Source of the DNA: Archangium sp. | GTDB lineage: Bacteria; Myxococcota; Myxococcia; Myxococcales; Myxococcaceae | Reading direction: 5' to 3' | DNA: 64,000 nt | Assembly (NCBI GenBank): GCA_030695565.1 | Contig: JAUYRZ010000015.1 | Location: forward strand, 1 to 64,000 | Shown here: one piece after another, positions 20,656 to 37,305 of the stretch | Numbering within the stretch: the first letter of the stretch is position 1 | Layout: every line of letters begins with the position of its first letter | Notes under the pieces: generated by a model | Seen by the model: the letters and a program-made list of their open reading frames with translations, nothing else | Databases searched by the model: none | Told to the model about the DNA's origin: nothing | Made by a program: the position numbers and the translations under genes

Positions 20656-23600
20656 GTGCTCACCGACTCCCTGCCTCGCCCTGGAGACATCGCTCGCGTT
20701 CGTCACCGCCAGTATCTGGTCGACGAGGTCCAGGCCGCGAGCGGCGTGCGCGATACGAACACGCTCGTTCGACTCACCTGTCTTGACGACGACGCGCAAG
20801 GAAGGCCGCTCTCCGTGCTCTGGGAGCGGGAGCTGGGTGCGCAAGTGCTCCGCCCCGAGACGCGGGGATTGGCCCACGCGACGAAGCTCGATGAACCACG
20901 GCACTTCGCGGCCTACTTGCACGCGCTGAAGTGGAGCTCGGTCACGGCGACCGACGCCCGGCTCTTTCAGGCGCCATTTCGCGCTGGCATTCACCTGCTC
21001 GATCACCAACTGACGCCGCTGAAGAAGGCGCTCGAGTTGCCTCGGGTCAACCTCTTCATCGCGGACGACGTGGGCCTGGGAAAGACGATCGAAGCGGGCC
21101 TGGTCATGCAGGAGCTGATGCTCCGCCAGCGCGTCGAGCGGGTGCTCGTGGTCTGCCCTGCGTCCGTCACGCTGCAGTGGAAGGAAGAGATGGAGCGGCG
21201 CTTCGGCCTCCACTTCGAGATCTTCAACCGCGACTTCGTGGCGCGTCGCCGGCAGGAGCGCGGCTTTCAGGTTCCCGTCTGGGGAACGCATGCGCGCTTC
21301 ATCGTCTCGTACCAGACGCTGCGGCGCAGCGAGTACTTCGAGCCGCTCAAGACCTTCCTCAGCGAGCGCGGGAGACAGAAGTCGATGCTGGTGCTCGACG
21401 AGGCCCACGTCGTCGCCCCGGCGTCTTCGACGCGGTACGCGGTCGACACCGAGACCACCCGCAGCATCCGCCAGCTCACCGAGCTGTTCGAGCATCGCCT
21501 CTTCCTCTCGGCGACGCCGCACAACGGGCACAGCAACAGCTTCTCGGCGCTGCTCGAGATGCTCGACCCTCAGCGTTTCACGCGCGGAACCCGGGTGAAG
21601 GAGCAGCAGCTCGAACCGGTGATGGTGCGCCGGCTGAAGAGCGATCTGCGCGCGCTGGGCAGCGACGATTACCCTGAGCGGCAGGTGCTGGCGATTCACC
21701 TGACCCACCAGCAGGGCGCGTGGACGGCGACCTCTCCCGACGGCAGCGTCACCCCACTCGGCGAGGGCCCTGCCACCGAGCTGGAGCTGTCCACCATGCT
21801 CGCGCGCTACACCGAGCTGATGCGCCCTACCGCCCGGCGCGGCCGGCTGGTGTTCATCAACCTGCAGAAGCGACTGCTCTCGAGCATCGAGGCCTTCCAC
21901 CGCACGCTCTCGGTCCACGCGGCGGCGTTCGGTGCGGGCTCACTCGCGCCGGGTGCGCGCGCGGAAGAAGAGAGCAGCCCGGCCGAAGAGTTCGGGGAGA
22001 CAGACTCTGAGTTGGAGCTCGAGTTCGAGCAGGAGGTGCGTGAGGAGAGCAGCGGGCTGAGCCCTGATGTTCAAGCGCGGGTGCTGCTCGATGAGCTGCT
22101 CTCCCTGAGTGCCAGGCACCGCAACCGCCCCGACACCAAGCTCAAGGCGCTGATCGAGTGGATCAAGCAGCACCTCTGCGCGCTCACGCCGGGGGCGGCG
22201 TGGAAGCCGCGGCGGGTGATCATCTTCACGGAGTACGGAGACACGCTCGGCTATCTGAGAGAGCAGCTCACCGCGGCCTTCGAGTCCACCGAGCGTGGTG
22301 ACGAGCGCATCCTCACGCTCAAGGGCGGCCTGGGTGACGAAGGCCGCGCGGCGGTACAACGCGCCTTCAACGGCGACCTCGAGGAGCACCCGGTTCGCGT
22401 GCTGCTGGCGACCGACGCCGCGCGAGAAGGCATCAACCTGCAGGGGCACTGCGCGGATCTCTTCCACTTCGACGTGCCGTGGAACCCTTCGCGGCTGGAG
22501 CAGCGCAACGGCCGAATCGATCGCGCGCTGCAGCCTGAGAAGGTCGTGCGCTGCGGCTACTTCATCTACACGCAGCGCGCAGAAGACGCGGTGCTCGAGA
22601 CGCTGGCGCGCAAGGTCGAGGTGATCGCGCGCGAGCTGGGGAGCCTGGGCAGCGTGCTGATGGATCAGATGGAGGCCGCCCTGCGCGAGGGCATTGGCGC
22701 GGGCACCCAGGAGGCGGTGGAGAAGGCGGCGCACTCCGCGTTGTCAGACGTGGCCAGGCAGGAGCTGGAGACCCAACGCACGCAGACCCGACTCAAGAAG
22801 GAGCTCGACGCGATCGCGGAGATCACCGAGCGCAGCCGCAAGGTGATGGACTTCGACCCGGCCCTGCTCCGTGACGCTTTGGACGTGGGCTTCGAGCTCT
22901 CCGGAGCGCAGCGCCTCTCGGCGCAGAACCTCAAGGAAGACGGCAAGGCCCTGAACGCGTGGAAGATGCCAACGCTGCCCGACTCGTGGAGCCGCACGCT
23001 CGACAGCATTCGCCATCCGCGCGAGAAGGACGAGACGCTTTGGGATTGGAGGAAGCGGCCCGTGCGCTCGGTGGTGTTCGAGGCGCCGGAGCGGATCTCG
23101 AGCGAGCTGGCGCACCTGCACCTCTCTCACCCCATCGTGCAGCGCGTGCTTCAGCGCTACCTCGCGCAAGGCTTCAGCGCGAATGATCTGAGCCGGGTCA
23201 CGGTGGTGCGCACCAAGCGCGACGCGGTGGCGCGGGTGATCGTGTTCGGGCGGTTGTCACTTTTCGGAAACGGCGCGGCGCGCCTGCACGACGAAGTGGT
23301 GAGCGTCTCTGCGAAGTGGCTGGAGGCGGAGGGAAAAGGCCACCTCAAGCCGTTCGGAGACGAAGCCGATCGACGGGCGATCGATCAACTGGAGGCGACG
23401 CTCGCAGAGGCGCCAGACCTCTCCTCGTTGCCGGAAGCCGTGCAGAAGAAGCTCCTCAAGGCCGCCCCGGGCGACTTCGCCAAGCTGTGGCCTGCGGTCG
23501 AAGACGAGTCGTCGCGCCGAGAGAAGGACGCGAGGAAGAAGTTGGTCGAGCGAGGCCAGGCTGAAGCGAAGGCGCTGACGAAGATCCTCGAGCTGCAGCA

Positions 23601-23823
23601 GGAGTCGATCGCCGAGGTGCTCGATCGGCAGCTCGACCTCGACCTGGTCGCCAAAGAAGAGGTCGATCAGTTCAAGCGCGACAAGGGACACCTGGAGAAC
23701 CGGCGCGCAGCGCTCGAGAAGGAACTCGAAGAACAACCCGAGCTGCTGAAGCAGACCTACGACGTGCGGCTCGCGCGCTTGACGCCTGTGGGCATGGTCT
23801 ACCTGTGGCCGAGTTCACGATGA
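20656..23823 (+). CDS. drmD: DISARM SNF2-family helicase DrmD
   Basis: 1055 residues, GTG start. The SNF2/RapA-like helicase core begins with DDVGLGKTIEAG (motif I, about 138-149). Motif II is DEAH at 248-251, and motif III is LFLSATPHNGHSNS. The C-terminal RecA lobe contains LLATDAAREGINLQG and the arginine-finger motif SRLEQRNGRIDR. A helical region and a coiled coil finish the protein. In class 1 DISARM, DrmD is the SNF2 helicase encoded at the head of the operon with drmMI, and that is its place here. Its product probably helps detect or remodel invading unmethylated DNA. Confidence 0.92.
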   Translation: MLTDSLPRPGDIARVRHRQYLVDEVQAASGVRDTNTLVRLTCLDDDAQGRPLSVLWERELGAQVLRPETRGLAHATKLDEPRHFAAYLHALKWSSVTATDARLFQAPFRAGIHLLDHQLTPLKKALELPRVNLFIADDVGLGKTIEAGLVMQELMLRQRVERVLVVCPASVTLQWKEEMERRFGLHFEIFNRDFVARRRQERGFQVPVWGTHARFIVSYQTLRRSEYFEPLKTFLSERGRQKSMLVLDEAHVVAPASSTRYAVDTETTRSIRQLTELFEHRLFLSATPHNGHSNSFSALLEMLDPQRFTRGTRVKEQQLEPVMVRRLKSDLRALGSDDYPERQVLAIHLTHQQGAWTATSPDGSVTPLGEGPATELELSTMLARYTELMRPTARRGRLVFINLQKRLLSSIEAFHRTLSVHAAAFGAGSLAPGARAEEESSPAEEFGETDSELELEFEQEVREESSGLSPDVQARVLLDELLSLSARHRNRPDTKLKALIEWIKQHLCALTPGAAWKPRRVIIFTEYGDTLGYLREQLTAAFESTERGDERILTLKGGLGDEGRAAVQRAFNGDLEEHPVRVLLATDAAREGINLQGHCADLFHFDVPWNPSRLEQRNGRIDRALQPEKVVRCGYFIYTQRAEDAVLETLARKVEVIARELGSLGSVLMDQMEAALREGIGAGTQEAVEKAAHSALSDVARQELETQRTQTRLKKELDAIAEITERSRKVMDFDPALLRDALDVGFELSGAQRLSAQNLKEDGKALNAWKMPTLPDSWSRTLDSIRHPREKDETLWDWRKRPVRSVVFEAPERISSELAHLHLSHPIVQRVLQRYLAQGFSANDLSRVTVVRTKRDAVARVIVFGRLSLFGNGAARLHDEVVSVSAKWLEAEGKGHLKPFGDEADRRAIDQLEATLAEAPDLSSLPEAVQKKLLKAAPGDFAKLWPAVEDESSRREKDARKKLVERGQAEAKALTKILELQQESIAEVLDRQLDLDLVAKEEVDQFKRDKGHLENRRAALEKELEEQPELLKQTYDVRLARLTPVGMVYLWPSSR

Positions 23824-23895: not shown

Positions 23896-26800
23896 ATGAG
23901 TGACAACGAGCGCCGGTATCACGAGACCTGGCTGGGCATGGCGCAGCCGATCGAAGGCCTGGTCGTCTCAGTGCCCGTGCTCGACGACGCGCAGTGCATG
24001 CAGCGCCTGCACGGCTCGGAGCAGGCCAAGCTGATCGCCCTCACGGGCGCCGACAAGCCGCTGCTCACCGACGTCCCGCGCTTCCTGAAGGAGGTGCTCG
24101 ACTACCCGGAGGGCTCCTGGTCGACCGAGTTCCCGGAAGACCTCCGGCTGGACGTGGTCGAGGGCCAACAAACACTGCGGCCCACGCGAGGCCTCAAGCG
24201 GCGCGGCGCACCGCCTGCGAAGCCAGAAGGTCTGCCCGACGACTCCACGCCGACCAGCCGCGCAGGCGAAGGCTTCGTGCTGCTGACCTGGGAAATCCCT
24301 TCAGGGCTTCCGCTCGACACCAAGGAGAACACCACCGGCGCCTGGTTCTACGAGCCCAGCGCGAAGTTCGAGCGGCTGCTGCGCGCGGCCCGGGTACCGG
24401 TGGGGTTGCTGTTCAACGGAGAGTCGATCCGCCTGATGTACGCGCCGCATGGCGAGTCGACGGGCCACCTCACCTTCCGGCTGAAGGATCTCGTCACCAC
24501 CGGTGGCCGGCCGCTGTTCGACGCGATGGTGATGCTGCTCAACGCGCGGCGGCTCTATGGCGTCTTGCCCGAGCACCAGCTCCCGGCGTTGCTCGAGCAG
24601 TCTCGGCGCAGGCAAGCCAACGTCACCGAAGCGCTGGCGGAGCAGGTGTTCGAGGCGCTCACCATTCTCCTCGCCGGCTTCGAAGGCGCGGCGGATCGGG
24701 ATGGCAGCCGCTCGCTCAAAGACGCGCTGTCCCGAGGGGAAGACCACGTCTACGGCGGGCTGCTGGCGGTGCTGCTGCGCTTGGTGTTCGTGCTCTACGC
24801 GGAAGACCGCGGGCTGATGCCCACCGACGAAGAGCCGTACGCGGAAGACCTCTCGGTGAAGGCGCTGTACCTGCAGCTGCTGGAAGACTCGGGCAACTTC
24901 CCCGACGCAATGAGCCGGAGGTTCGGTGCCTGGCCGCGGCTGTTGGCGCTCTTCCGCTCCATCTTCTTCGGGGCGGCGCACGGCAAGCTGCACATGCCGC
25001 CGCGACGCGGCCAGCTGTTCGATCCAGAGGCGTACCCGTTTCTCGAAGGCTGGAGCGTCGGTGGTGCGCCCGTCGCGCCCGAGGCACGCGCGGCGGTACA
25101 GGTCCCCCCGGTCGACGACGAGACACTGTTTCGCGTGTTGGACAAGTTGATCGTCCTCGAGGGGCAGCGGCTGAGCTACCAGTCGCTCGACGTCGAGCAG
25201 ATCGGCTCGGTCTACGAAGCGCTGATGGGGTACCACGTGAAGCCGCTCACCGGAGCGGGCGTGTGCCTCAAGTCGACGCATGTGTGGGTGTCGGCGGACG
25301 AGGTATTGGAGGCTCCAGCCGCGCGCCGGGCGAGCTGGTTCGAAGACGAAGGCGCGCTCGACGGGAAGCAGGCGAAGGCGGCCGCGAAGGCGCTGGAGAA
25401 GGCGAAGACCGAAGCCGACGTGCTGGAGGCGCTCGAGCCGTGGAGACTCAAACAACTCGAGACGAAGGCCATGGGGCGGTTGGTCTTGCAGCCCGGCCTC
25501 GAGCGGCGGCGCACCAGCAGTCACTACACGCCGCGCACGCTTTCGTCTCCGATCGTGCGGCGGGCGCTGGAGCCGTTGCTTAAGGCGATGGGCGAGGTCC
25601 CCTCGTCGGAGCGCCTGCTCAACCTGAAGATCTGCGATCCCGCGATGGGCTCGGGCGCGTTCCTGGTCGAGGCCTGCCGCTTTCTGGCAGATCAGGTGGT
25701 CGCCGCGTGGACGCGCGAAGGCGTGCTGAAGGAGGCGCCGAAAGACGAAGACGTGGTGATGCGCGCGCGCCGCCTGGTGGCGCAGCGATGCCTCTACGGC
25801 GTCGACAAGAACCCGTTCGCGGTGAACCTGGCGAAGTTGTCGTTGTGGTTGGTGACCCTCGCGAAGGTGGAGCCTTTCACGTTCCTCGACCACGCGCTCA
25901 AGTGTGGTGACTCGCTGGTGGGCCTGGACCTCGAGCAAATCCGCGCGTTCCGCTGGACGCCTTCGACGAAGAAGGAGGAGCAACTCGACCTCTCCGGCGA
26001 GGTGTTCAAGAAGGCGCTCGCGGTGGCGCTCGAGAAGCGGCAGGCCATTCTCCAACTCGCGCTCGATCTGGAGCGGCCGTCTGTGAAGCGGCCGAAGCAG
26101 TTGGGGTTGGATCCTGCGAAGAAGAAGGAGGAGTTGCTGCGAGATGCCGACGAGGCGCTGGCGCCTGTGAAACGGATCGCCGATGCGTGCGTCGGGGCCT
26201 TCTTCGCGTCCGACTCGGACAAGGAGCGGGAGAAGGAACGCGTTCGTCGGCTCGACGTGATGGGGGCATGGCTTGCGAAGTCGGAAGACGGCGTTGCGCC
26301 GGCGCCCACTGAGGCCGTGCTTGGCCTCACGTCACCGCCACATGCATTTCACTGGGCGCTCGAGTTTCCCGAAGTGTTCCACGGCAAGCGGCCGGATCCG
26401 CTCGACGCGGAGCAACCGAACAAGGCCGCGTGGATGGATGCATTCGTCGGGAACCCGCCGTTCATGGGCAAGAACGGGATCATCGACACGGGTGGCGAAG
26501 GGTACTTGCCGTGGCTGCAGACGGTTCATGAAGATGCGCACGGCAACGCAGACCTGGCCGCGCACTTCTTTCGTCGAGCGTTCCACTTGCTCGGAGAACA
26601 CGGAACGATCGGGTTCATCGCGACGAACACAATCGGCCAGGGCGACACCCGAGGGACAGGCCTGAAATGGATCGTTGACCAGGGTGCAGTGCTCTTCGAC
26701 GCGGTCAGATCAATGAAGTGGCCCGTGCCCGGAGCGAACGTCGCTGTCTCGATCGTGCACGTCGCCAAAGGCAACGTGACCGAAGTTACACTCGAGCCGC

Positions 26801-27822
26801 GACTTGATGGCCGCAGGGTGTCGTCGCTTAACTCAAGGATTAGGGCCAAGCCTGAGCGAGCAGAGCCGGTCGCACTCGCAGCCAATGCGGGCAAGGCGTT
26901 CATGGGGAGTACGGTTTTGGGAATGGGATTCGTATTGAGTCCATCGAGTCGCCAACAGCTAATCGCCAAGGATCAGCGGAATGCAGACCGGATCTTTCGG
27001 TATGTCGGTGGCGAGGAGATGAACTCAGACCCAGATCCGTCCCTTGAGAGGTATGTGATCAACTTTGAGCACATGGAACTTACGGAAGCGGAACGCTGGC
27101 CAGACCTGCTTTCGATCGTTCGCCAACTTGTGAGGCCAGAGCGCGAGCGGCAGAAGGACAAGCTCGCGAAGGAGTACTGGTGGCGATTCACTAGGCCGCG
27201 GCCCGAGTTGTATGCCGCGCTTCGTCCGCTGAACCGCAGCCTGGCTCTCTCCGCAGTTTCCAAGCACCTCGTTCCGAACTGGCGGCCTGCCAGACGAGTG
27301 TTTTCGCACTCGTGCTTCGTCTTCCCATTGGAGGAGGATCGCTGGCTGGCAACCATTCAGTCGAGGGTGCATGAAGCTTGGGCGCGGTTGCTCTCCTCCT
27401 CAATGAGGACGGATCTCCGGTACGTGCCCAGTGACTGCTTTGAGACCTTCCCCTTCCCGCCCGAGCCAGCATTTGCGGCCCTCGATGGTCTCGGCGCAAA
27501 GCTCGATGCCGAGCGCAGTGGGTACTTGAAGGCCAACCAAGTTGGCCTGACCACGACCTACAACCGCCTCAAGGACGAAGCGGTGAACGACCCGGCGATC
27601 ATCTCGCTGCGTCGCCGGCACGAAGAGGTCGACCGCGCCGTACTCGACGCATACGGCTGGACCGATGTGAAGGTCCCTCCCTACTGCGGCGCCACGCCCG
27701 CCGAACTCGAGGCGTTCGAAGACGACGTGCTTGACCGCCTGTTCGATCTCAACGAGCGCCGTGCCAAGGAGGAAGCCCTTCTTGCCGCGCCTGCTTCGAA
27801 GAAGAAGCGGGCACGGGCGTGA
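23896..27822 (+). CDS. drmMI: DISARM adenine-specific DNA methyltransferase DrmMI
   Basis: 1308 residues. The AdoMet-binding motif I is CDPAMGSGAFLVEACR (about 581-596), followed by VDKNPFAVNLAKLSLW. Catalytic motif IV is NPPF (about 853-856, in FVGNPPFMGKNG), typical of N6-adenine gamma-class enzymes of the Eco57I/PglX type. The N-terminal ~450 residues are the long helical extension of class 1 DISARM methylases, and the C-terminal ~350 contain the target-recognition region. The enzyme marks self DNA. The recognition part is visibly less GC-rich than the rest. The stop overlaps the next start codon (TGATG). Confidence 0.92.
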   Translation: MSDNERRYHETWLGMAQPIEGLVVSVPVLDDAQCMQRLHGSEQAKLIALTGADKPLLTDVPRFLKEVLDYPEGSWSTEFPEDLRLDVVEGQQTLRPTRGLKRRGAPPAKPEGLPDDSTPTSRAGEGFVLLTWEIPSGLPLDTKENTTGAWFYEPSAKFERLLRAARVPVGLLFNGESIRLMYAPHGESTGHLTFRLKDLVTTGGRPLFDAMVMLLNARRLYGVLPEHQLPALLEQSRRRQANVTEALAEQVFEALTILLAGFEGAADRDGSRSLKDALSRGEDHVYGGLLAVLLRLVFVLYAEDRGLMPTDEEPYAEDLSVKALYLQLLEDSGNFPDAMSRRFGAWPRLLALFRSIFFGAAHGKLHMPPRRGQLFDPEAYPFLEGWSVGGAPVAPEARAAVQVPPVDDETLFRVLDKLIVLEGQRLSYQSLDVEQIGSVYEALMGYHVKPLTGAGVCLKSTHVWVSADEVLEAPAARRASWFEDEGALDGKQAKAAAKALEKAKTEADVLEALEPWRLKQLETKAMGRLVLQPGLERRRTSSHYTPRTLSSPIVRRALEPLLKAMGEVPSSERLLNLKICDPAMGSGAFLVEACRFLADQVVAAWTREGVLKEAPKDEDVVMRARRLVAQRCLYGVDKNPFAVNLAKLSLWLVTLAKVEPFTFLDHALKCGDSLVGLDLEQIRAFRWTPSTKKEEQLDLSGEVFKKALAVALEKRQAILQLALDLERPSVKRPKQLGLDPAKKKEELLRDADEALAPVKRIADACVGAFFASDSDKEREKERVRRLDVMGAWLAKSEDGVAPAPTEAVLGLTSPPHAFHWALEFPEVFHGKRPDPLDAEQPNKAAWMDAFVGNPPFMGKNGIIDTGGEGYLPWLQTVHEDAHGNADLAAHFFRRAFHLLGEHGTIGFIATNTIGQGDTRGTGLKWIVDQGAVLFDAVRSMKWPVPGANVAVSIVHVAKGNVTEVTLEPRLDGRRVSSLNSRIRAKPERAEPVALAANAGKAFMGSTVLGMGFVLSPSSRQQLIAKDQRNADRIFRYVGGEEMNSDPDPSLERYVINFEHMELTEAERWPDLLSIVRQLVRPERERQKDKLAKEYWWRFTRPRPELYAALRPLNRSLALSAVSKHLVPNWRPARRVFSHSCFVFPLEEDRWLATIQSRVHEAWARLLSSSMRTDLRYVPSDCFETFPFPPEPAFAALDGLGAKLDAERSGYLKANQVGLTTTYNRLKDEAVNDPAIISLRRRHEEVDRAVLDAYGWTDVKVPPYCGATPAELEAFEDDVLDRLFDLNERRAKEEALLAAPASKKKRARA

Positions 27823-28733
27823 TGAATGCAGCCACTCCGCTTCAGCTGACCTATCTGCAGTTCATCCGCGACTACATCGCGCTGCACCGTCAGGCCCCTG
27901 CCGAAGCGGACATGCAGGCCTACTTCCGAGTCTCCCCGCCGAGCGTCCACCGCATGGTCGTCGTCCTCGCCGAGAAGGGCCTGATCACCCGTGTGCCGGG
28001 CCAGGCACGCTCCATTCAGCTGACCGCGGCAGGCGCGCAGCCACGGCCAGCACCAAGCGCCGATGAACTCGAGGCCGCTGCAGACGCTCTGCTGCAGGCG
28101 CCCGCGGGTTCGAAGCAAAAGACCCGCGACTGGGCCATTCACAGCGACCCCGAGCAGGAATCAGCCGCTGCCATTGCCGGTGAACAGAGCGACGAACGAC
28201 GGCAGTACGCCCGCTGGCTGCGAAAGCAGGGCGACCCGCGCGGAGAACTCGCTCACCTCTTCGAGGCCGGCGATCCTGCCGCGGCGCAGCGGTACCTCAA
28301 GCGTCACGCCACCCTGCTCTTCAATGAAGCGGCACGGCGAGTGAGCCTGGGCCACATCGCCATCGACGCCTGGACCTTCGGCCTGGTCGACCGCGCGCGT
28401 GTTCGGCTCGACAAGGTCACCGCCACCGAACTGCGCGCCTTCGCTCATTGCCCCTCCACCCGATTCCTCTCATCGCTGACCTTCCACTTCACAGACCAGA
28501 ACCACAACGCAATCGCCAAGGTCCAGGTCGGCCGCCGCAAACTCGAGGACATCGTCGCCGTGTTGAAGAACGCTCCCTGCGCCGACTCACTGCGGGTCGT
28601 GCACGTGAGGAGCATCGACCCTGACGGCCAACCTGCCGCGGTGATGAAAGAGAAGACGGTGTGGGCGCGAGAGGCGCTTCGCAGGTTTCGCTGTTTGACC
28701 GACTGCCGCTTGTCGTTCGACTCCGAGCCCTGA
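27822..28733 (+). CDS. Winged-helix / TIGR02996-like fusion protein in DISARM
   Basis: 303 residues, with the start overlapping the drmMI stop (TGATG). Residues 5-65 look like a LexA-type winged helix (LTYLQFIRDYIALHRQAP, then PPSVHRMVVVLAEKGLITRV). The LexA protease domain is absent. Near residue 123 the sequence DERRQYARWLRKQGDPRGE matches the TIGR02996 repeat-companion motif that is abundant in myxobacteria and planctomycetes. The C-terminal half is an unrecognised alpha/beta region. It is not a standard DISARM gene. It could be a transcriptional regulator of the locus or a DNA-binding sensor; the role is inferred only from position. Confidence 0.8.
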   Translation: MNAATPLQLTYLQFIRDYIALHRQAPAEADMQAYFRVSPPSVHRMVVVLAEKGLITRVPGQARSIQLTAAGAQPRPAPSADELEAAADALLQAPAGSKQKTRDWAIHSDPEQESAAAIAGEQSDERRQYARWLRKQGDPRGELAHLFEAGDPAAAQRYLKRHATLLFNEAARRVSLGHIAIDAWTFGLVDRARVRLDKVTATELRAFAHCPSTRFLSSLTFHFTDQNHNAIAKVQVGRRKLEDIVAVLKNAPCADSLRVVHVRSIDPDGQPAAVMKEKTVWAREALRRFRCLTDCRLSFDSEP

Positions 28734-28893
28734 GCTTGACCCGAACAAATGGCCAGCCGGCCTCAATGGGTTCGACATTAAGTTCGCGGGCTGGCTGAGT
28801 TGCACGACGCCGCCGTTTGGGTCGAGACATCAAGAACCGGTTCTTCTTCGAAAGCGTGACGGAGAAGATCGAATTGGATGGGGGGTTTGTGTG
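28734..28893. other. Intergenic gap inside the DISARM operon
   Basis: These 160 bases look less GC-rich than the flanking genes by eye and contain no ORF with a coding-like third-position bias that I can find. They contain several short GGCCAGCC/GGCTGG inverted segments but no clear terminator. A weak internal promoter for the following cassette is possible. Confidence 0.4.
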
Positions 28894-29328
28894 ATGGCGC
28901 AAGCATTCCAGGAAAAGCCGTTTGAACTGTCGAGGATCTTGGATTGGCCGGGTGCCGCAGTCTCCGTGCGCGCTGATTCGATGCGGGCCGTGACGGAGCA
29001 CTACGCGGCCGCCGCCAGCCGCGTGGTGTGGACGAAGCAGCACCTGTTTGACCAACTGACGCTCGAGTGGCGCGAGGGCACCATGCGCGTCTCGTCACTG
29101 AGCGACATCGAGGCCCACCCCTCGTATCAGCGGATCATCGGCATGGGGCAAGACGCACTTCCGTACATTCTCGACGAGCTGCGGCGTGCGCCAGATCACT
29201 GGCACTGGGCGCTGGTCTCGATCACAGGAGCGAACCCAGTTCCCCCTGAGTCGAGCGGCGACCTCGAGAAGATGCGCCAAGCCTGGCTGAGTTGGGCTTC
29301 ATCGAAATCCGATGTTCTCCACGGGTAA
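28894..29328 (+). CDS. Uncharacterised 144-residue protein in DISARM insert
   Basis: The ATG at 28894 is preceded by GGGGGG at about 8 bases. The C-terminal half has the conserved-looking block HPSYQRIIGMGQDALPYI, then DHWHWAL and ITGANPVP. I remember this block from many small uncharacterised proteins in cyanobacteria and other bacteria, usually encoded beside mobile or toxin-like genes. No catalytic motif, signal peptide or membrane helix is apparent. It lies between the winged-helix gene and the darTG cassette. The function is unknown; it is perhaps an accessory or small defence component. Confidence 0.7.
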   Translation: MAQAFQEKPFELSRILDWPGAAVSVRADSMRAVTEHYAAAASRVVWTKQHLFDQLTLEWREGTMRVSSLSDIEAHPSYQRIIGMGQDALPYILDELRRAPDHWHWALVSITGANPVPPESSGDLEKMRQAWLSWASSKSDVLHG

Positions 29329-29446: not shown

Positions 29447-29600
29447 CGAGGTGTCTGCCGGGAATGGTAGGGTTGCCGACAATGACGACGGCGAGTGGTG
29501 GCTCGGGGGCGGTTCGGTCGCAGCTGATCGAAGCGCTGGAGGCGGATCGGGTCGGGCCTTTCCGTCGCGTGGCTGGCGAGGCGACTTCAAAGGCGCCCGC
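29447..29600 (+). repeat. Upstream copy of 154-bp direct repeat (drmA 5' end)
   Basis: It aligns without gaps to 31409-31562 (constant offset 1962). The stretch from about 29491 to 29588 differs by one base, while the first ~40 bases are more diverged. The repeat covers the ribosome-binding region and the first ~40 codons of drmA. Confidence 0.95.
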
Positions 29601-29631
29601 GGCAAAACCGACGCGCCGTAAGGCCACTTGA
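29482..29631 (+). pseudogene. Truncated drmA leader ORF coupled to darT
   Basis: 49 codons. Residues 1-38 match the start of intact DrmA almost exactly (GGSGAVRSQLIEALEAD, then VGPFRRVAGEATS). The reading then diverges into APAAKPTRRKAT and stops. The TGA overlaps the darT ATG (TGATG). The same AGGG ribosome-binding context as intact drmA precedes it. It is therefore a fragment of drmA that may still be translated and may deliver ribosomes to darT. Confidence 0.8.
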
Positions 29632-30275
29632 TGGCCCCGATCCCGACTCCGATCCTGCGGCTCGTTCACGTCGAAAATCTCGGCGTGCTGTTGACCAGAG
29701 GTGCGCTTCACTCGGCGAACCACACGCCTCAAGACGGGTTGGGTTACCGCGCGATCCACCGAGTCGATGTGCAACAGAGCCGACACCAGCGTCAGGTGAC
29801 CGCTGGACCCTGCGGAGTGCTGCTGGACTACGTGCCGTTCTACTTCGGGAACAAGAGCCTCCTCCTGTTTCAACTGAAGACGGGTCGCGTCGCCGGGTAC
29901 GCCGCGGGGCAGCGGCCGTTGATCCACCTGCTGGTGCACGCGCAAGACGTGGTCGCAAGAGGCCTCGGCTTCGTCTTCACCAATGGCCACGCCCTGGCGA
30001 ACTACACCGACTTCTTTGACAGCCTGGACCACCTCAATGAGATCGACTGGGCCGTCGTCAATCTCCAGTTCTGGAAAGCAACCGTGGACGATCCCGATCG
30101 GCAGACCAAGAAGCAGGCCGAGTTCCTGGTGCATCAGTCGCTGCCGTGGGACCTGGTGCGCGAAATCGGAGTGGTCGACGAAGCAGCACGGGCCGCGGTG
30201 CTCGAAGTGCTCTCGCACCATCCGCACGCGCTGCATCGGCCAGTTGCGATTCGCCGAGAATGGTACTACCCATGA
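29631..30275 (+). CDS. darT: DarT-type DNA ADP-ribosyltransferase toxin
   Basis: 214 residues, the usual DarT length. Family (DUF4433) landmarks are visible: RLVHVENL with H13 and N16 at the NAD pocket, PCGVLLDYVPFYFG (about 60-73), the H120-ALAN segment, and the catalytic Glu in KKQAEFLVHQ (E164). Arg51 or Arg54 would be the conserved catalytic Arg. DarT transfers ADP-ribose from NAD to thymidine bases in single-stranded DNA, blocks replication and protects bacterial populations from phages. It overlaps the leader ORF upstream (TGATG) and is followed at once by darG, the normal order of this module. Confidence 0.92.
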   Translation: MAPIPTPILRLVHVENLGVLLTRGALHSANHTPQDGLGYRAIHRVDVQQSRHQRQVTAGPCGVLLDYVPFYFGNKSLLLFQLKTGRVAGYAAGQRPLIHLLVHAQDVVARGLGFVFTNGHALANYTDFFDSLDHLNEIDWAVVNLQFWKATVDDPDRQTKKQAEFLVHQSLPWDLVREIGVVDEAARAAVLEVLSHHPHALHRPVAIRREWYYP

Positions 30276-30292
30276 CTGAACAGGAGAGCAGC

Positions 30293-31342
30293 ATGGTCGA
30301 ATCAACCCAGGGCAACCTGCTCAAGGCCGACGTCGAGGCGCTGGTGAACACCGTCAATTGCGTCGGGTTCATGGGCAAAGGCATCGCGCTCCAGTTCAAG
30401 CAGGCGTACCCCGAGAACTTCCGCAGCTACGAGCGCGCCTGCAAGGCGCAGGAGGTTCAGCCCGGCCGCATGTTCGTGGTGCCGAGCGGCGAGCTCGAGG
30501 GCCCCCGGTTCATCATCAACTTCCCCACCAAGCGGCATTGGAGGGGCGACAGCCGGCTCGAAGACATCGACTCCGGCTTGCGCGCGCTGATCGACGAGGT
30601 CCGACGCCTCAACATCAAGTCCATCGCGGTGCCGCCTCTGGGTTGTGGCAACGGTGGCCTTGATTGGGGCACCGTACGGCCGCGCATCATCACCGCCTTC
30701 GCGAAGGTGCCAGACGTTCGCGTCCTCCTCTTCGAGCCCGCTGGGGCTCCTCCAGCACATGACGCCGTCATTCGAACGCCGCGGCCCAGACTGACAGTCG
30801 GGCGTGCGCTGCTCATCAAGCTGCTCGAACAATACTCAGCCCTCGAAGATCGCAAGACGCTGCTCGAGGTGCAAAAGCTCGCCTACCTCATGCAGGAAGC
30901 CGGGCAGCCGCTCAGGCTTCAGTACCGCGAACACCTCTACGGTCCGTACGCCCCCAACTTGAAGAAGGTCCTGGAGGCAGTCGAGGGTCACTATCTGACT
31001 GGGTATGTCGACAACGAGAAGCCCGACGTCGAGATCGATCTGCTCCCGGGTGCCACCGACGAAGCGGCGGCCTTCTTGAGCTCTGATGAAGCAGCACGCG
31101 CTCGACTGGCCCGCGTCGGCAAGCTCATCGAAGGCTATGAGACGCCCTACGGCATGGAGCTTCTGGCAACGGTTCACTGGGTCGGCCTGCACCAGAACGC
31201 CCGGGGCCCCGCCGAAGCGGTGGAGCGTGTGCACGCCTGGAGCCCTCGCAAGGCCAAGCTGTTCCGGCCGAGCCACATTCACGCGGCGTGGGAGCGCCTG
31301 GCATCGCAAGGCTGGCTGCGTGCTCCAGCTGAGGCGTCGTAG
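30293..31342 (+). CDS. darG: DarG-type macrodomain antitoxin
   Basis: 349 residues. The start was chosen at the ATG with AGGAG 6 bases upstream; an ATG at 30272 overlapping the darT stop (ATGA) is the alternative. The N-terminal macrodomain has TQGNLLKADVEALVNTVN, GFMGKGIALQFK, NFPTK with the catalytic Lys80, and PPLGCGNGGLDW. It removes ADP-ribose from DNA. The C-terminal ~170 residues (EVQKLAYLMQEAGQPL, REHLYGPYAPNL) are the DarG domain that binds and neutralises DarT directly. Confidence 0.93.
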   Translation: MVESTQGNLLKADVEALVNTVNCVGFMGKGIALQFKQAYPENFRSYERACKAQEVQPGRMFVVPSGELEGPRFIINFPTKRHWRGDSRLEDIDSGLRALIDEVRRLNIKSIAVPPLGCGNGGLDWGTVRPRIITAFAKVPDVRVLLFEPAGAPPAHDAVIRTPRPRLTVGRALLIKLLEQYSALEDRKTLLEVQKLAYLMQEAGQPLRLQYREHLYGPYAPNLKKVLEAVEGHYLTGYVDNEKPDVEIDLLPGATDEAAAFLSSDEAARARLARVGKLIEGYETPYGMELLATVHWVGLHQNARGPAEAVERVHAWSPRKAKLFRPSHIHAAWERLASQGWLRAPAEAS

Positions 31343-31408: not shown

Positions 31409-31562
31409 CGAGGTATCTGTCGAGAGTGGTAGGGTCCGTCTCAATGACTTCGGCGAGTGGTGGCTCGGGGGCGGTTCGGTCGCAGCTGATCGAAGCGCTG
31501 GAGGCGGATCTGGTCGGGCCTTTCCGTCGCGTGGCTGGCGAGGCGACTTCAGAGGCACCCGA
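31409..31562 (+). repeat. Downstream copy of 154-bp direct repeat (intact drmA start)
   Basis: Partner of 29447-29600. This copy leads into the full-length drmA gene. Together the two copies bracket darT and darG. Confidence 0.95.
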
Positions 31563-34500
31563 GGTGCTGCGCATCGCGCCCTCGCGTTGGTACCTCACCG
31601 GGTTCCTCGTGCCCCGCGAGCAGGGCGAGATCGAAGACGAGCCCGATGACGCCGATGGCGACGCGACGGCGGGTGACGACGTCGATGACGAAGAAGGCCA
31701 GAAGCCAGACCCCACGGTGAAGAAGGTGCGCCGCATGCCGGCCTCGATGGGGCTCTCGGTGCTGATCGAGCCTGGCGTGAAACAGCTCGAGGTCACGGTG
31801 TCGTGGGCCGACTACGTGCGCCTCGAAGGCGAACACAAACACTGGAGCCGGAAGTTTCAGCAACGCACCCGCTCCGTCTTGCTCACGGAGCTGAGCAAGG
31901 GCGTGGCGATCCCGGACAGCGGGGGGCTGAGCCTCGAGGGCCGCGTCGAGAGGACCGCTGACGACAAGCTCGCGGTGGCCGTCTTCGTGGTGAACAACCG
32001 GCAGGCCGGGGCGGTCGCCAGCAACCGTGACGAGGCCTACGCGTTCCAGGTGCGCCTGGTGCTGTCATGCCCGACAGGCTTCGTCGGGCGATACGATCGC
32101 AGCGACGAGCGCAGCGAAGACACCGACGACAACGTCAACGATCTCCAGTTTCGCAAGCAGCAGGAATGGGGCGTGGGCCACGGCGTGGCGGTGGACGTGG
32201 ATGCCTCGAAGCTGCCGGTCACCCAGGTGGCCACCACCTGGATCCCCCGCGTGAAGGTGCCTCCGGTCGAGGCGCGCGAGCTGCCCGGCGTGGTGGTCGA
32301 GATGGAGCTGCTCGCCGTGATGGCGAGCGCGGCCGACGTGGCCAGGGCCCTGGCGCCGCTGGTGGCCAGCTATCGCACGTGGATCGACGACCAGCTGAAG
32401 ATCGAGCTCGAGGGAGAACCGCGTCGCGCGACCCGTGAGACGCTGGTGACGCAGGCCCGGCGTGCGGCCGATCGCATCGACGCGGGCCTTGCGCTCCTGG
32501 CGACCGATCCACTCGCGTTCGACGCCTTCCTCTGGATGAACGAGGTGATGGCGCGAGCCGAACGAAAGGCCCGCCCCGACCAGTCACCCAAGTGGCGCCT
32601 TTTTCAGCTCGCGTTCATCCTGCTGAACCTGCCGTCCATGGCCAATGAAGATGACCTCGATCGTGACACGGTCGAGCTCATCTTCTTCCCCACCGGCGGC
32701 GGCAAGACGCAGGCGTACCTGGGCCTCATCGCCTTCACCCTGTTGCTGCGTCGGCTGCGGGGGCAGGCGCGACCCGACGGTGGGCTCGGGGTCGCCGTGT
32801 TGCTGCGCTACACCCTTCGGCTGCTCACCCTCGATCAGCTCGGCCGCGCCTCCACCCTCATCTGCGCGCTCGAGCTGCTGCGCCGAACCCACCCGACCCG
32901 CCTGGGTGAGGTGCGCTTCTCCATCGGTTTGTGGGTGGGCCGCTCCGCCACCGCGAACACCTTGAAGCAGGTCGCCGTTCAGCTCACCGAATACAAGAAC
33001 GACAACAGCGAGCGGGCGCTCTCGCCCTTTCCGCTCGCGAAGTGCCCCTGGTGCAGCAGCGACTTCAAGCGGGAGAGCTTCATCATGCTCCCGAACAAGA
33101 CCTCGCCCACCCAGGTGCTGGTCGGCTGCGCCAACGTCGACTGCGACTTCAACACCGGGCGCAACCGCGAAGGGTTGCCGGTGCTCTTCGTCGATGAGCA
33201 GATCTACGAGGAGCTGCCCTGCTTCCTCGTCGCCACGGTCGACAAGTTCGCCCTGCTCCCCTGGCGCGGAGAGACCGGCCTGCTCTTCGGGCGTGCGCTC
33301 GGCCGCACGGGCAAGACCTTCGTGGGGCCCTGCAACGACGCGCGGGAGTTGAAGGCTGCGGCCATCAAGCTGCCCAAAGGGCTGCCGCCGCCTGAGCTGA
33401 TCGTTCAAGACGAGCTGCACCTCATCTCTGGCCCGCTCGGCTCGATGGTGGGCCTCTACGAAGCGGCGGTGCTCACGCTGGCGCCGAAGGCCAAGGTGGT
33501 CGCATCCACCGCGACGGTGCGCAGGGCGCGCCAGCAGGTGGAGCGCCTGTACGGCCGCCGCGTGGCGCTTTTTCCACCCCCTGGAGTCGACGTCTCCGAG
33601 ACCTTCTTCGCCAGGGTCGGCAACAAAGGCGCGCGTGAGTACGTGGGGGTGGCCGCACCGGGAAGACCGCTCAAGGCGATCCTGCTGCGCACCTACGTGA
33701 GCCTGCTCGCCGCTGCGATGCGCGGGCACGAGGAGCTCGGCGCTGCGGCCGACCCCTACTTGACGCTGGTCGGCTACTTCAACAGCCTGCGCGAGCTGGG
33801 CGGCATGAGGCGCCTCATCGAAGACGAAGTGCGCCTGCGCACCATCAAGGCCGCCGAACGTGCGCCGGAGGACTTTCCCGATGGCGGGGTTCACCCCTGG
33901 TACCGCGGGCGAACCATTCGTGCGGAGCCCATCGAGCTCACCAGCCGGCTCTCCACCGCGAAGATCAAAGAAGCCAAGGATCTGCTGGCCGAACCGTATG
34001 GCCAGCCCAAGAGCGTCGACGTGGTGCTGGCCAGCAACATGATCTCAGTGGGCGTCGACATCGATCGACTGGGCTTGATGGTGATGGCCGGTCAACCCAA
34101 GACGACCAGTGAATACATTCAGGCCAGCAGCCGGGTGGGCCGCAAAGACAGCAAACCGGGCCTCGTGGTGACGGTGCTCAACGTCACCAAGCCCCGCGAT
34201 CGAAGCCACTACGAGCGCTTCGGCCCGTACCACGAGTCGTTCTATCGCTTCGTGGAGGCCACTTCGGTGACGCCCTTCTCTGCCCCCGCGCTCGATCGCG
34301 GCCTGGCGGGCGTGGTGGTCGCCCTCGGCCGCCTGCTGGACACCTCGATGACCGCGCCGCTGGCCGTGAAGGATCTGCACACCCATCGAGCCGTCATCGA
34401 GAAGCAGTTGATCGAGGTGATGCAGCGAGCGGGCACGGGCATCACCGACAAGGATGAGCAGGCCCGCCTGGTGAACACCGTGGTCAGCCGGGTGAAGAGC

Positions 34501-34788
34501 CTGCTCGACGCGTGGCGCTCCGTCATCGAGCAGACGAAGAAGGACGGCGGCGAGCGGGCCTACTCGCCACTCGACCCGGACGGAAAGAATATGAAGTCGC
34601 TGCTTCGTGAGGTGCTCGCGCCCATCGAAGACGCCACGCCGGAAGACCTGCGCTTCGAAGCGCCGCTCTCCATGCGCGACGTCGAGGCGTCGGTTCATTT
34701 GTGGATGCAGCGGCAGCCGCTGGGTGGCTACAAGCGGCCCATCGCCGCGAAGCCGGAAGAGGAGAAGGTGGCGGATGGCGGCGAATAG
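31444..34788 (+). CDS. drmA: DISARM helicase DrmA
   Basis: 1114 residues. The ATG at 31444 (AGGG upstream) fits the duplicated copy; a GTG at 31426 is in frame. Helicase motif I is FFPTGGGKTQAY (about 415-426), motif II is the DEXH-type DELH (about 657-660, in IVQDELHLISGP), and the second lobe has ASNMISVGVDIDRLG and QASSRVGRK. A four-Cys zinc knuckle is split between CPWC and CANVDC (about 530-565). DrmA forms the core of DISARM with DrmB and acts on incoming DNA. It overlaps drmB by 14 bases. Confidence 0.93.
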   Translation: MTSASGGSGAVRSQLIEALEADLVGPFRRVAGEATSEAPEVLRIAPSRWYLTGFLVPREQGEIEDEPDDADGDATAGDDVDDEEGQKPDPTVKKVRRMPASMGLSVLIEPGVKQLEVTVSWADYVRLEGEHKHWSRKFQQRTRSVLLTELSKGVAIPDSGGLSLEGRVERTADDKLAVAVFVVNNRQAGAVASNRDEAYAFQVRLVLSCPTGFVGRYDRSDERSEDTDDNVNDLQFRKQQEWGVGHGVAVDVDASKLPVTQVATTWIPRVKVPPVEARELPGVVVEMELLAVMASAADVARALAPLVASYRTWIDDQLKIELEGEPRRATRETLVTQARRAADRIDAGLALLATDPLAFDAFLWMNEVMARAERKARPDQSPKWRLFQLAFILLNLPSMANEDDLDRDTVELIFFPTGGGKTQAYLGLIAFTLLLRRLRGQARPDGGLGVAVLLRYTLRLLTLDQLGRASTLICALELLRRTHPTRLGEVRFSIGLWVGRSATANTLKQVAVQLTEYKNDNSERALSPFPLAKCPWCSSDFKRESFIMLPNKTSPTQVLVGCANVDCDFNTGRNREGLPVLFVDEQIYEELPCFLVATVDKFALLPWRGETGLLFGRALGRTGKTFVGPCNDARELKAAAIKLPKGLPPPELIVQDELHLISGPLGSMVGLYEAAVLTLAPKAKVVASTATVRRARQQVERLYGRRVALFPPPGVDVSETFFARVGNKGAREYVGVAAPGRPLKAILLRTYVSLLAAAMRGHEELGAAADPYLTLVGYFNSLRELGGMRRLIEDEVRLRTIKAAERAPEDFPDGGVHPWYRGRTIRAEPIELTSRLSTAKIKEAKDLLAEPYGQPKSVDVVLASNMISVGVDIDRLGLMVMAGQPKTTSEYIQASSRVGRKDSKPGLVVTVLNVTKPRDRSHYERFGPYHESFYRFVEATSVTPFSAPALDRGLAGVVVALGRLLDTSMTAPLAVKDLHTHRAVIEKQLIEVMQRAGTGITDKDEQARLVNTVVSRVKSLLDAWRSVIEQTKKDGGERAYSPLDPDGKNMKSLLREVLAPIEDATPEDLRFEAPLSMRDVEASVHLWMQRQPLGGYKRPIAAKPEEEKVADGGE

Positions 34789-36628
34789 GAAGTTCAGGAG
34801 ACCAGGGGCGCAGCTCAAGCCACCCGACGGGCGCATTCGGCAAAGCCAGGTGGTCACCACCTTCGGCCCGGGCAGCATGCTCGACCTGGTCGACGACGCC
34901 GTGCTGGTCGGTGGGCTCGACTTCTGGCGCATGCCCAACGACGGAGAACGGGTCGACGAGCCCCGCCTCCTCGAGGCCATCGAGCACTTCTTTCACCACC
35001 GCAAGTGGCCGCTCAACAAGGAGGCTCCGTTTCGCAAACCGCCCGCGGGCAACGAGCGCGAACCGACCGACGGTTGCGGCATTCAGGTGCTCGAGTTCCC
35101 CCGCTGGGTGGTCTGCCAGAACCCGCGGTGTCGCGCGTTGGTGAAGGCGAGCAGCCTCGATCGCGTGAGCGGAAAGATTCGTCATCGCTGCTCGGGCGGC
35201 GACGGAAGCACCGAGCGCTGCGTGCCCGTGCGCTTCGTGGTCGCCTGCACCCGCGGGCACCTCGACGATGTGAACTGGCCGCGGTGGACCCATGAAGGAA
35301 AGCAGTGCGCCGGCCCTCAACTGCGTCTCGAAGAAGGTCCCTCGGGCGACTTCAGCGAGATTCAGATCGCGTGCACCGCCTGCGGCAAGCGGCGCAAGCT
35401 CATCGAGATGACGGTCAGGGAGCGGCAGGACGACTGCTCAGGTCAACGCCCCTGGCTGGGCAATGAAGGCGAGGAGCGCGGCTGCACCGAGAAGGCGCGG
35501 TTGTTGGTGCGCACGGCGAGCAATGGCTACTTCGCGCAGACCCAGAGCGTGATCACCATTCCCGAACCCGAGACGCTCAGGCGGCGCGTGCAATCTCAGT
35601 GGAAGACCCTGCAGCACGCGACCAGCACGACGCTGGTGGCCTTCCGCACCCTGCCCGAAGTCCACCAGGCGCTGGGCGATGCCACCGACACGCAGGTTCT
35701 GGAGGCCATCGAAGCCGAGCGCCATCGCCAGCCTGAGTTGATGCCCGAGGTGCGTACGGCGGAGTGGCTCCAGTTCACCGGACAGCCGAAAGAGAAGCCC
35801 GGCGAAATGCCGCTCGATCGAAACGAGGTCTTCTGGGCCCGGCGCATCAAGCGGCCCAAAGGTCTGCCCGATCAGGTCGGCGAGGTCATTCTGGCGCGCC
35901 GGTTGAGGGAGGTGCAGGCGCAGGTCGGCTTCACCCGCATCGACGCGTCGACCAAAGACCTGCAAGGGCGGCTCGATCTCGACGTGAAGCTCGCCCCGCT
36001 GGCGTTGCAACGAGACTGGGTGCCGGTGACCGAGGTCAAGGGCGAGGGGGTGCTCCTCACGCTGGACGAGGATCGGCTCCACGCATGGGAGAAGTCGGAG
36101 CCCGTACTCGAGCGAACCGTGATGCTCAAGGAAGCCTATGAGCGCTGGGCAAAACACTCGAAGTCGAAGGTCGAATTTCCGGGTGCCCGCTTCTACCTGG
36201 TGCACACGCTGGCCCATTTGCTCATGACCGAGGTCTCGCTGGAGTGCGGCTATCCGGCGAGCGCGATTCACGAGCGGTTGTACTGCGCGCCCCACACCGA
36301 CCCCGTGCCCATGGCGGGTCTCCTGCTCATGACCGGCACCAGCGGAACGGAAGGCACGCTCGGAGGACTGGTCGAAGAAGGGCGGCGGCTGGGTCGCCAC
36401 CTGGCACGCGCGTGGGAGAATGCGCGGCTCTGCTCGAATGATCCCGTCTGCGCGACGCATCAGCCGACGGGGCTCGATGATCGCAACCTCGAAGGCGCGG
36501 CGTGCCACAGCTGCCTCTTCCTGCCCGAGTGCTCCTGCGAGCGATTCAACCAATTCCTCGATCGAGCGCTCGTGGTGCCGACGCTCGGGGTGGAGGACGT
36601 GGCCTTCCTGGGACGCGCATGGACCTGA
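34775..36628 (+). CDS. drmB: DISARM DUF1998 protein DrmB
   Basis: 617 residues; the start is the ATG inside the drmA 3' end, preceded by GGAGAAGG. The N-terminal motif IRQSQVVTTFGPGSMLDLVD is typical. Zinc-binding Cys groups occur at CQNPRC, in HRCSGG, and at ACTACGK. The C-terminal DUF1998 domain has ARFYLVHTLAHLLM, ECGYPASAIHERLY and the Cys-rich end CHSCLFLPECSCERFN. DrmB partners DrmA in the DNA-binding DISARM core. It overlaps drmC by 10 bases. Confidence 0.93.
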   Translation: MAANRKFRRPGAQLKPPDGRIRQSQVVTTFGPGSMLDLVDDAVLVGGLDFWRMPNDGERVDEPRLLEAIEHFFHHRKWPLNKEAPFRKPPAGNEREPTDGCGIQVLEFPRWVVCQNPRCRALVKASSLDRVSGKIRHRCSGGDGSTERCVPVRFVVACTRGHLDDVNWPRWTHEGKQCAGPQLRLEEGPSGDFSEIQIACTACGKRRKLIEMTVRERQDDCSGQRPWLGNEGEERGCTEKARLLVRTASNGYFAQTQSVITIPEPETLRRRVQSQWKTLQHATSTTLVAFRTLPEVHQALGDATDTQVLEAIEAERHRQPELMPEVRTAEWLQFTGQPKEKPGEMPLDRNEVFWARRIKRPKGLPDQVGEVILARRLREVQAQVGFTRIDASTKDLQGRLDLDVKLAPLALQRDWVPVTEVKGEGVLLTLDEDRLHAWEKSEPVLERTVMLKEAYERWAKHSKSKVEFPGARFYLVHTLAHLLMTEVSLECGYPASAIHERLYCAPHTDPVPMAGLLLMTGTSGTEGTLGGLVEEGRRLGRHLARAWENARLCSNDPVCATHQPTGLDDRNLEGAACHSCLFLPECSCERFNQFLDRALVVPTLGVEDVAFLGRAWT

Positions 36629-37305
36629 GTGCGATCTCCACTCCGGACCTCATGCGGCTCGAAGACGCGCTGAAACGAGGCGAGCTTGGCATTCCGTTCT
36701 CGGGCCATGGCTTGCGCTCGCTCGGGCTGGAGTCACTGGTGTCGCACGCACCGACACTGTCGGGCCTTGGGCGAGATGCGGCGCGCCTTCTCGTGACTGC
36801 GGTGTTGCGTGACCGCGGCAGCAGGGGCCGACGACCTGAGTTGGTGTGGACGGGGCCTGAAACGAAGCAGAGTGGCGCGCGCGACACCGCCGTGGTGCTC
36901 AGTGATCTCTTCTCATCGGCGCAGCAGTCAGTGCTGATCGCGGGCTTCGTCTTCGATCACGGAGCCACGGTGCTCAGCGCGCTGCACCAGGCAATGCAGA
37001 GGGGCGTCAACTGTCGCCTCTTCGCGGATGGCGATGCGGCTCGTCACTTTCGCCGGGACAACTGGCCCTTCGGCCCTCCTTTCCCGGAGGTCTTCCGCTT
37101 CGTACCGGCGGCGGGTGTCTTCGCCAGCCTTCACGCCAAGTGCGTGGTGGTCGACCACCACTTGGTCTTCGTGACCTCAGCGAACTTCACGGATCGTGGC
37201 CAGAACAGGAACATTGAAGTCGGGGTGCTGCTCCATGATGAGAACCTTGCAGCGGTGGTCGAGGGCCAATTCAGCTCCGCTCGGTGTTTCGTCGAAGAAC
37301 GGTGA
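36619..37305 (+). CDS. drmC: DISARM phospholipase D-like protein DrmC
   Basis: 228 residues; the ATG lies inside the 3' end of drmB. A single PLD/nuclease HKD motif is present (HAKCVVVDHH, about residues 173-182), followed by TSANFTDRGQNRNIEVG. PLD family nucleases of this size act as dimers with one HKD per chain. DrmC is the third universal DISARM gene, reported as less critical for protection than DrmA and DrmB. It closes the operon. Confidence 0.9.
   Translation: MDLSAISTPDLMRLEDALKRGELGIPFSGHGLRSLGLESLVSHAPTLSGLGRDAARLLVTAVLRDRGSRGRRPELVWTGPETKQSGARDTAVVLSDLFSSAQQSVLIAGFVFDHGATVLSALHQAMQRGVNCRLFADGDAARHFRRDNWPFGPPFPEVFRFVPAAGVFASLHAKCVVVDHHLVFVTSANFTDRGQNRNIEVGVLLHDENLAAVVEGQFSSARCFVEER

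Follow-up and report, generated by a model that had tools for sequence, protein, structure and literature searches.

The window, a 64,000-nucleotide stretch of an Archangium sp. contig (genome G000), carries a complete class 1 DISARM operon on its forward strand in the order drmD-drmMI-insert-drmA-drmB-drmC. The SNF2-like helicase gene drmD (20656..23823; NF038317, 1069 bits against a cut-off of 610; PADLOC DrmD) is followed by drmMI (23896..27822; PADLOC DrmMI PDLC02643, 1214 bits), which encodes an MmeI/PglX-like adenine methyltransferase. Beyond the insert lie the DISARM helicase gene drmA (31426..34788; NF038325, 1092 bits), the DUF1998 gene drmB (34607..36628; NF038324, 551 bits), whose real start is probably further inside the open reading frame (ORF), and drmC (36502..37305; PADLOC DrmC, 242 bits), coding for a phospholipase-D-type nuclease. 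A second drmD-drmMI pair, 44-45% identical to that of the window, is present in the same genome (contig C47:1-8000, locus L097) and runs off the contig end.

The gene that follows drmMI, designated P0001 (27822..28733, forward strand), is an uninterrupted frame encoding 303 amino acids. Its ATG at 27822 shares one base with the TGA stop of drmMI (27820-27822), so the overlap noted in the sequence-only reading is confirmed; an in-frame GTG at 27819 provides an alternative start. The homologue of P0001 in a second genome (P0002 in G002, locus L059) has 219 amino acids, begins with a GTG inside GTGA and, like P0001, overlaps the stop of drmMI; the start/stop overlaps of the two loci read GCGTGATGA and GCGTGAAG. 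Between the two genes, the differences at codon positions 1/2/3 were 0.46/0.34/0.59. The third position varies most and the second least, which is the pattern expected for a protein-coding gene under selection. P0001 is a real gene, and it is probably produced together with DrmMI.

Downstream of P0001 lies an ORF of 145 amino acids with no assigned function (28891..29328, forward strand). It belongs to a small family, present in 14 of 145 genomes of the class and bearing the motif HPSYQRIIGMG; the closest relative (L186) has a 155-amino-acid gene next after it. Between this ORF and drmA are the forward-strand genes of DarTG, namely darT for the ssDNA ADP-ribosyltransferase toxin (29628..30275; Pfam PF14487, 1.7e-52; PADLOC DarT) and darG for the macro-domain antitoxin (30146..31342; NF048014, 463 bits; PADLOC DarG), where the domain match begins at residue 50 and the real start is probably within the ORF. 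A direct repeat of the drmA start (158 bp, 91% identity) lies on either side of DarTG: an incomplete, degraded copy of the 5' end of drmA (29447..29602, forward strand) is 91% identical to the intact 5' segment at 31409..31564. This repeat suggests that DarTG came as a separate event. Most simply, drmA would originally have started near 29447, and the later entry of DarTG would have duplicated its start, leaving the direct repeat as the likely scar of that entry into the operon.

Residues 1-67 of P0001 (27822..28022) form a LexA-type winged helix. Residues 1-63 matched Pfam LexA_DNA_bind (PF01726; 8.1e-7, 29.2 bits, cut-off 23.7), the match to solved LexA structures was weak, and AlphaFold2 modelled residues 1-70 as a confident winged helix with pLDDT values of about 80-94 by blocks. 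No peptidase domain follows it, in agreement with the earlier description of a LexA-type DNA-binding domain without a protease. LexA likewise carries its DNA-binding domain at the N-terminus, but P0001 lacks the S24 peptidase and scored 28.7 bits against the LexA equivalog model (cut-off 110.95). Having the winged helix alone, P0001 is not a LexA repressor, which would combine it with an S24 autoprotease domain.

The C-terminal part of P0001, residues ~108-303, comprises a diverged TIGR02996-like unit with the motif YARWLRKQGDPRGELAHL (28143..28268), recognized by alignment to TIGR02996 proteins, and a short LRR-like tail (28269..28730) that stops far earlier than in the relatives and contains the block VVHVRSIDP.GQ, conserved between P0001 and the G002 homologue. 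The NCBIfam TIGR02996 model (curated cut-off 29.05 bits) matched neither the whole protein nor fragments of it. A profile, A1, was built from two sequences, residues 80-303 of P0001 and the G002 homologue. Within the aligned region it matched proteins that score above the TIGR02996 cut-off (44.7-58 bits against 29), remaining in register with TIGR02996-LRR proteins across WL..QGDPRGEL and continuing into the first repeats. The TIGR02996-like motif claimed in the sequence-only reading stands as a distant kinship, visible through the profile alone, and not as a match to the family model. No mention of TIGR02996 was found in the literature searched.

The combination of a TIGR02996 unit with LRRs is the core of WGR-TIGR02996-LRR proteins, which are common in myxobacteria. 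These proteins, exemplified by one with WGR, TIGR02996 and STM4015-like LRR regions (L132:805-2163, reverse strand), share the domain order of P0001 and are matched by A1 at 35-53 bits; the winged helix of P0001 stands where they hold the WGR domain, if present. P0001 differs from them in that its TIGR02996 unit is below cut-off, its repeats are few and it lies inside DISARM. Pfam LRR and NF038076 matches occur in the relatives and are absent from P0001 and P0002, where the AlphaFold2 model is poor. Over the whole of P0001 the mean pLDDT was 57.9, and the AlphaFold2 model was reliable for the winged helix only.

A search with A1 of 195 genomes of the phylum returned two full-length members, P0001 at 436 bits and the G002 homologue at 406 bits; both scores are high by construction, as these sequences built the profile, and the telling point is that nothing else exceeded 53 bits. 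No full-length homologue of residues 80-303 was found in 72,556 plasmids, 50,697 phages and viral contigs. The two proteins are 38% identical across 204 residues (E 2e-42), and the G002 homologue is without the winged helix. Both full-length homologues of the C-terminal module lie directly after drmMI (2 of 2, small numbers), in DISARM loci rather than elsewhere. The two host loci do not come out as sisters in the DrmA tree, where G002 groups with G009 at 99/99 and G000 is weakly placed. Thus either the gene is ancient and has frequently been lost, or two separate arrivals brought it to one and the same point.

Relatives of the P0001 winged helix are proteins of ~79 amino acids with 50-70% identity over residues 5-67; those borne by IS630 end after the winged helix, whereas P0001 is fused to a further module. 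Of 20 distinct loci examined, 14 have an IS630-family transposase or fragment adjoining the winged-helix gene; they come from myxobacteria and rhizobial plasmids (L169-L171 for the latter), and the two genes are usually divergent, a few dozen nucleotides apart. Genome G133 holds two 100% identical copies of an IS630-family element with a LexA-type winged-helix passenger (L175:1829-3341 and L176:1855-3367, 1513 bp). Its inverted ends are CTAG-AGCTCGGCACAGAGGTT... and ...AACCTCTGTGCCGAG-CTAG, and since transposase and winged-helix genes both lie between them, the winged helix is there inside a mobile element. The DNA-binding domain of P0001 thus belongs to a separate small family carried mostly by IS630 elements. 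P0001 itself does not lie within such an element beside a transposase: no IS630 transposase is left in the window, and the IS630 terminal repeat gave 2 loose matches near P0001 against 2.6 expected. The winged-helix tree, which is weak and too short to settle the direction of capture, places P0001 nearer two non-IS630 copies with other C-terminal extensions. Because the window holds neither transposase nor terminal repeat and the tree points to non-IS630 copies, capture of the winged helix from a transposon is offered as a proposal. A search for an operator shared between the IS630 transposase and winged-helix genes found nothing conserved beyond near-identical copies.

The survey of the drmMI-drmA junction covered 31 DISARM loci whose contigs carry both genes. 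In 23 of them drmA directly follows drmMI, with a gap of -15 to +29 nt; in the other eight the gap spans 616 to 7024 nt, part of which may be a longer DrmA N-terminus in G116a and G140. Known or candidate defence genes among the inserts include DarTG in the window, PDC-M02 with IetAS in G002, and a restriction endonuclease-like protein, AIPR and a UvrD helicase in G092. The G002 locus (L059:4250-10700) nests PDC-M02A/B and IetA/IetS between drmMI and drmA. The C-terminal module of P0001 occurs in 2 of the 31 loci, and its fusion to a winged helix was found once only. Absence from the remaining 29 loci indicates that P0001 is dispensable for DISARM. It is a rare accessory at a cargo site and not a general or core DISARM component, and the earlier designation as a candidate new component survives in this restricted form. 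The scatter of homologues that the sequence-only reading had named as evidence against a DISARM link is seen domain by domain, the winged helix being mostly IS630-linked and TIGR02996-LRR proteins occurring scattered without a DISARM link; the C-terminal subfamily is DISARM-linked in both its members.

Common to the two copies are the TIGR02996-LRR-type module and the coupling to drmMI, not the winged helix, which makes a protein-binding accessory likelier than transcriptional control. Since the cargo differs between the loci, the common gene is tied to the DISARM slot and not to one cargo. The reading we tentatively favour, at somewhat less than an even chance, is that P0001 is a cargo-site accessory, a DrmMI-coupled adaptor that binds a partner and to which DNA binding has been added through the winged helix. 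Its LRR-type module would bind DrmMI, DrmAB or a DISARM substrate, and the winged helix, joined to the N-terminus of the module in this lineage, would bind DNA, so that P0001 would serve DISARM as a modulator or as a scaffold for DNA docking rather than as a core enzyme. The overlap with drmMI in both full-length A1 members, the selection pattern in the codons, the WGR-TIGR02996-LRR make-up of the relatives and the confident winged-helix model are consistent with such an adaptor. Against it stand the two known copies among many DISARM loci without the gene, the possibility of independent arrivals in non-sister hosts, the low-confidence C-terminal model, the failure to find a shared operator and the lower conservation of the gene (38-41% identity between G000 and G002, against 56-67% for the drm genes). 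A more specific form, in which an LRR-type adaptor with a transposon-type winged helix and an exchangeable N-terminal domain (winged helix, WGR or none) would dock DISARM on DNA via DrmMI or DrmAB or report DNA state, we consider doubtful. An independent gene at an integration-prone junction, functionally unconnected with either DISARM or DarTG, would account for the unrelated inserts, some of them other defence modules, that share this junction with P0001, and for the abundance of TIGR02996 proteins in the genome (19 matches over cut-off). That both copies come first after drmMI, overlap its stop and adjoin different cargo is a repetition unexpected by chance, and this explanation is unlikely.

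Winged helices of the LexA type typically act as repressors that bind DNA, and P0001 could act on an operon promoter, upstream of drmD or before darT, repressing or derepressing it, with the LRR-type module as the sensor of a ligand or partner. The divergent position of the small relatives near the IS630 transposase is a layout typical of a local repressor, and the literature describes regulators such as BrxR in other defence operons. However, the same-slot homologue is without a DNA-binding domain, so regulation cannot be the common function; with no common operator found between the IS630 copies and DarTG apparently inserted separately, autoregulation seems rather unlikely. Dedicated regulation or sensing of the DarTG toxin cassette, which the sequence-only reading had raised, would fit the position of P0001 on the same strand upstream of darTG and its DNA-binding domain. 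The idea is weakened, and we regard it as highly improbable: the position of DarTG between the two drmA-start copies suggests that it was inserted separately, other cargo and no DarTG adjoins the G002 homologue, and DarG already serves as antitoxin.

If the adaptor reading is true, DISARM, for which most auxiliary parts are uncharacterised, can take on adaptors specific to a lineage, the drmMI-drmA junction is a site for nesting further defence modules within the operon, and in P0001 a defence locus has incorporated a DNA-binding domain of a mobile-element family. The literature mentions that DISARM operons can hold further auxiliary genes (PMC9142583), and RmuC-domain (ShdA-like) genes have been described within Pseudomonas DISARM operons of one lineage (PMC10270631). 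The latter resemble P0001 as a lineage-limited accessory inside DISARM, but their domains are unrelated. Inserts also occur at a second place, between drmD and drmMI, in two genomes: a Schlafen AlbA_2/HATPase-type gene was seen there at L110:3179-5005, by Pfam match, and a similar protein is encoded at L111:12090-13790 (reverse strand).
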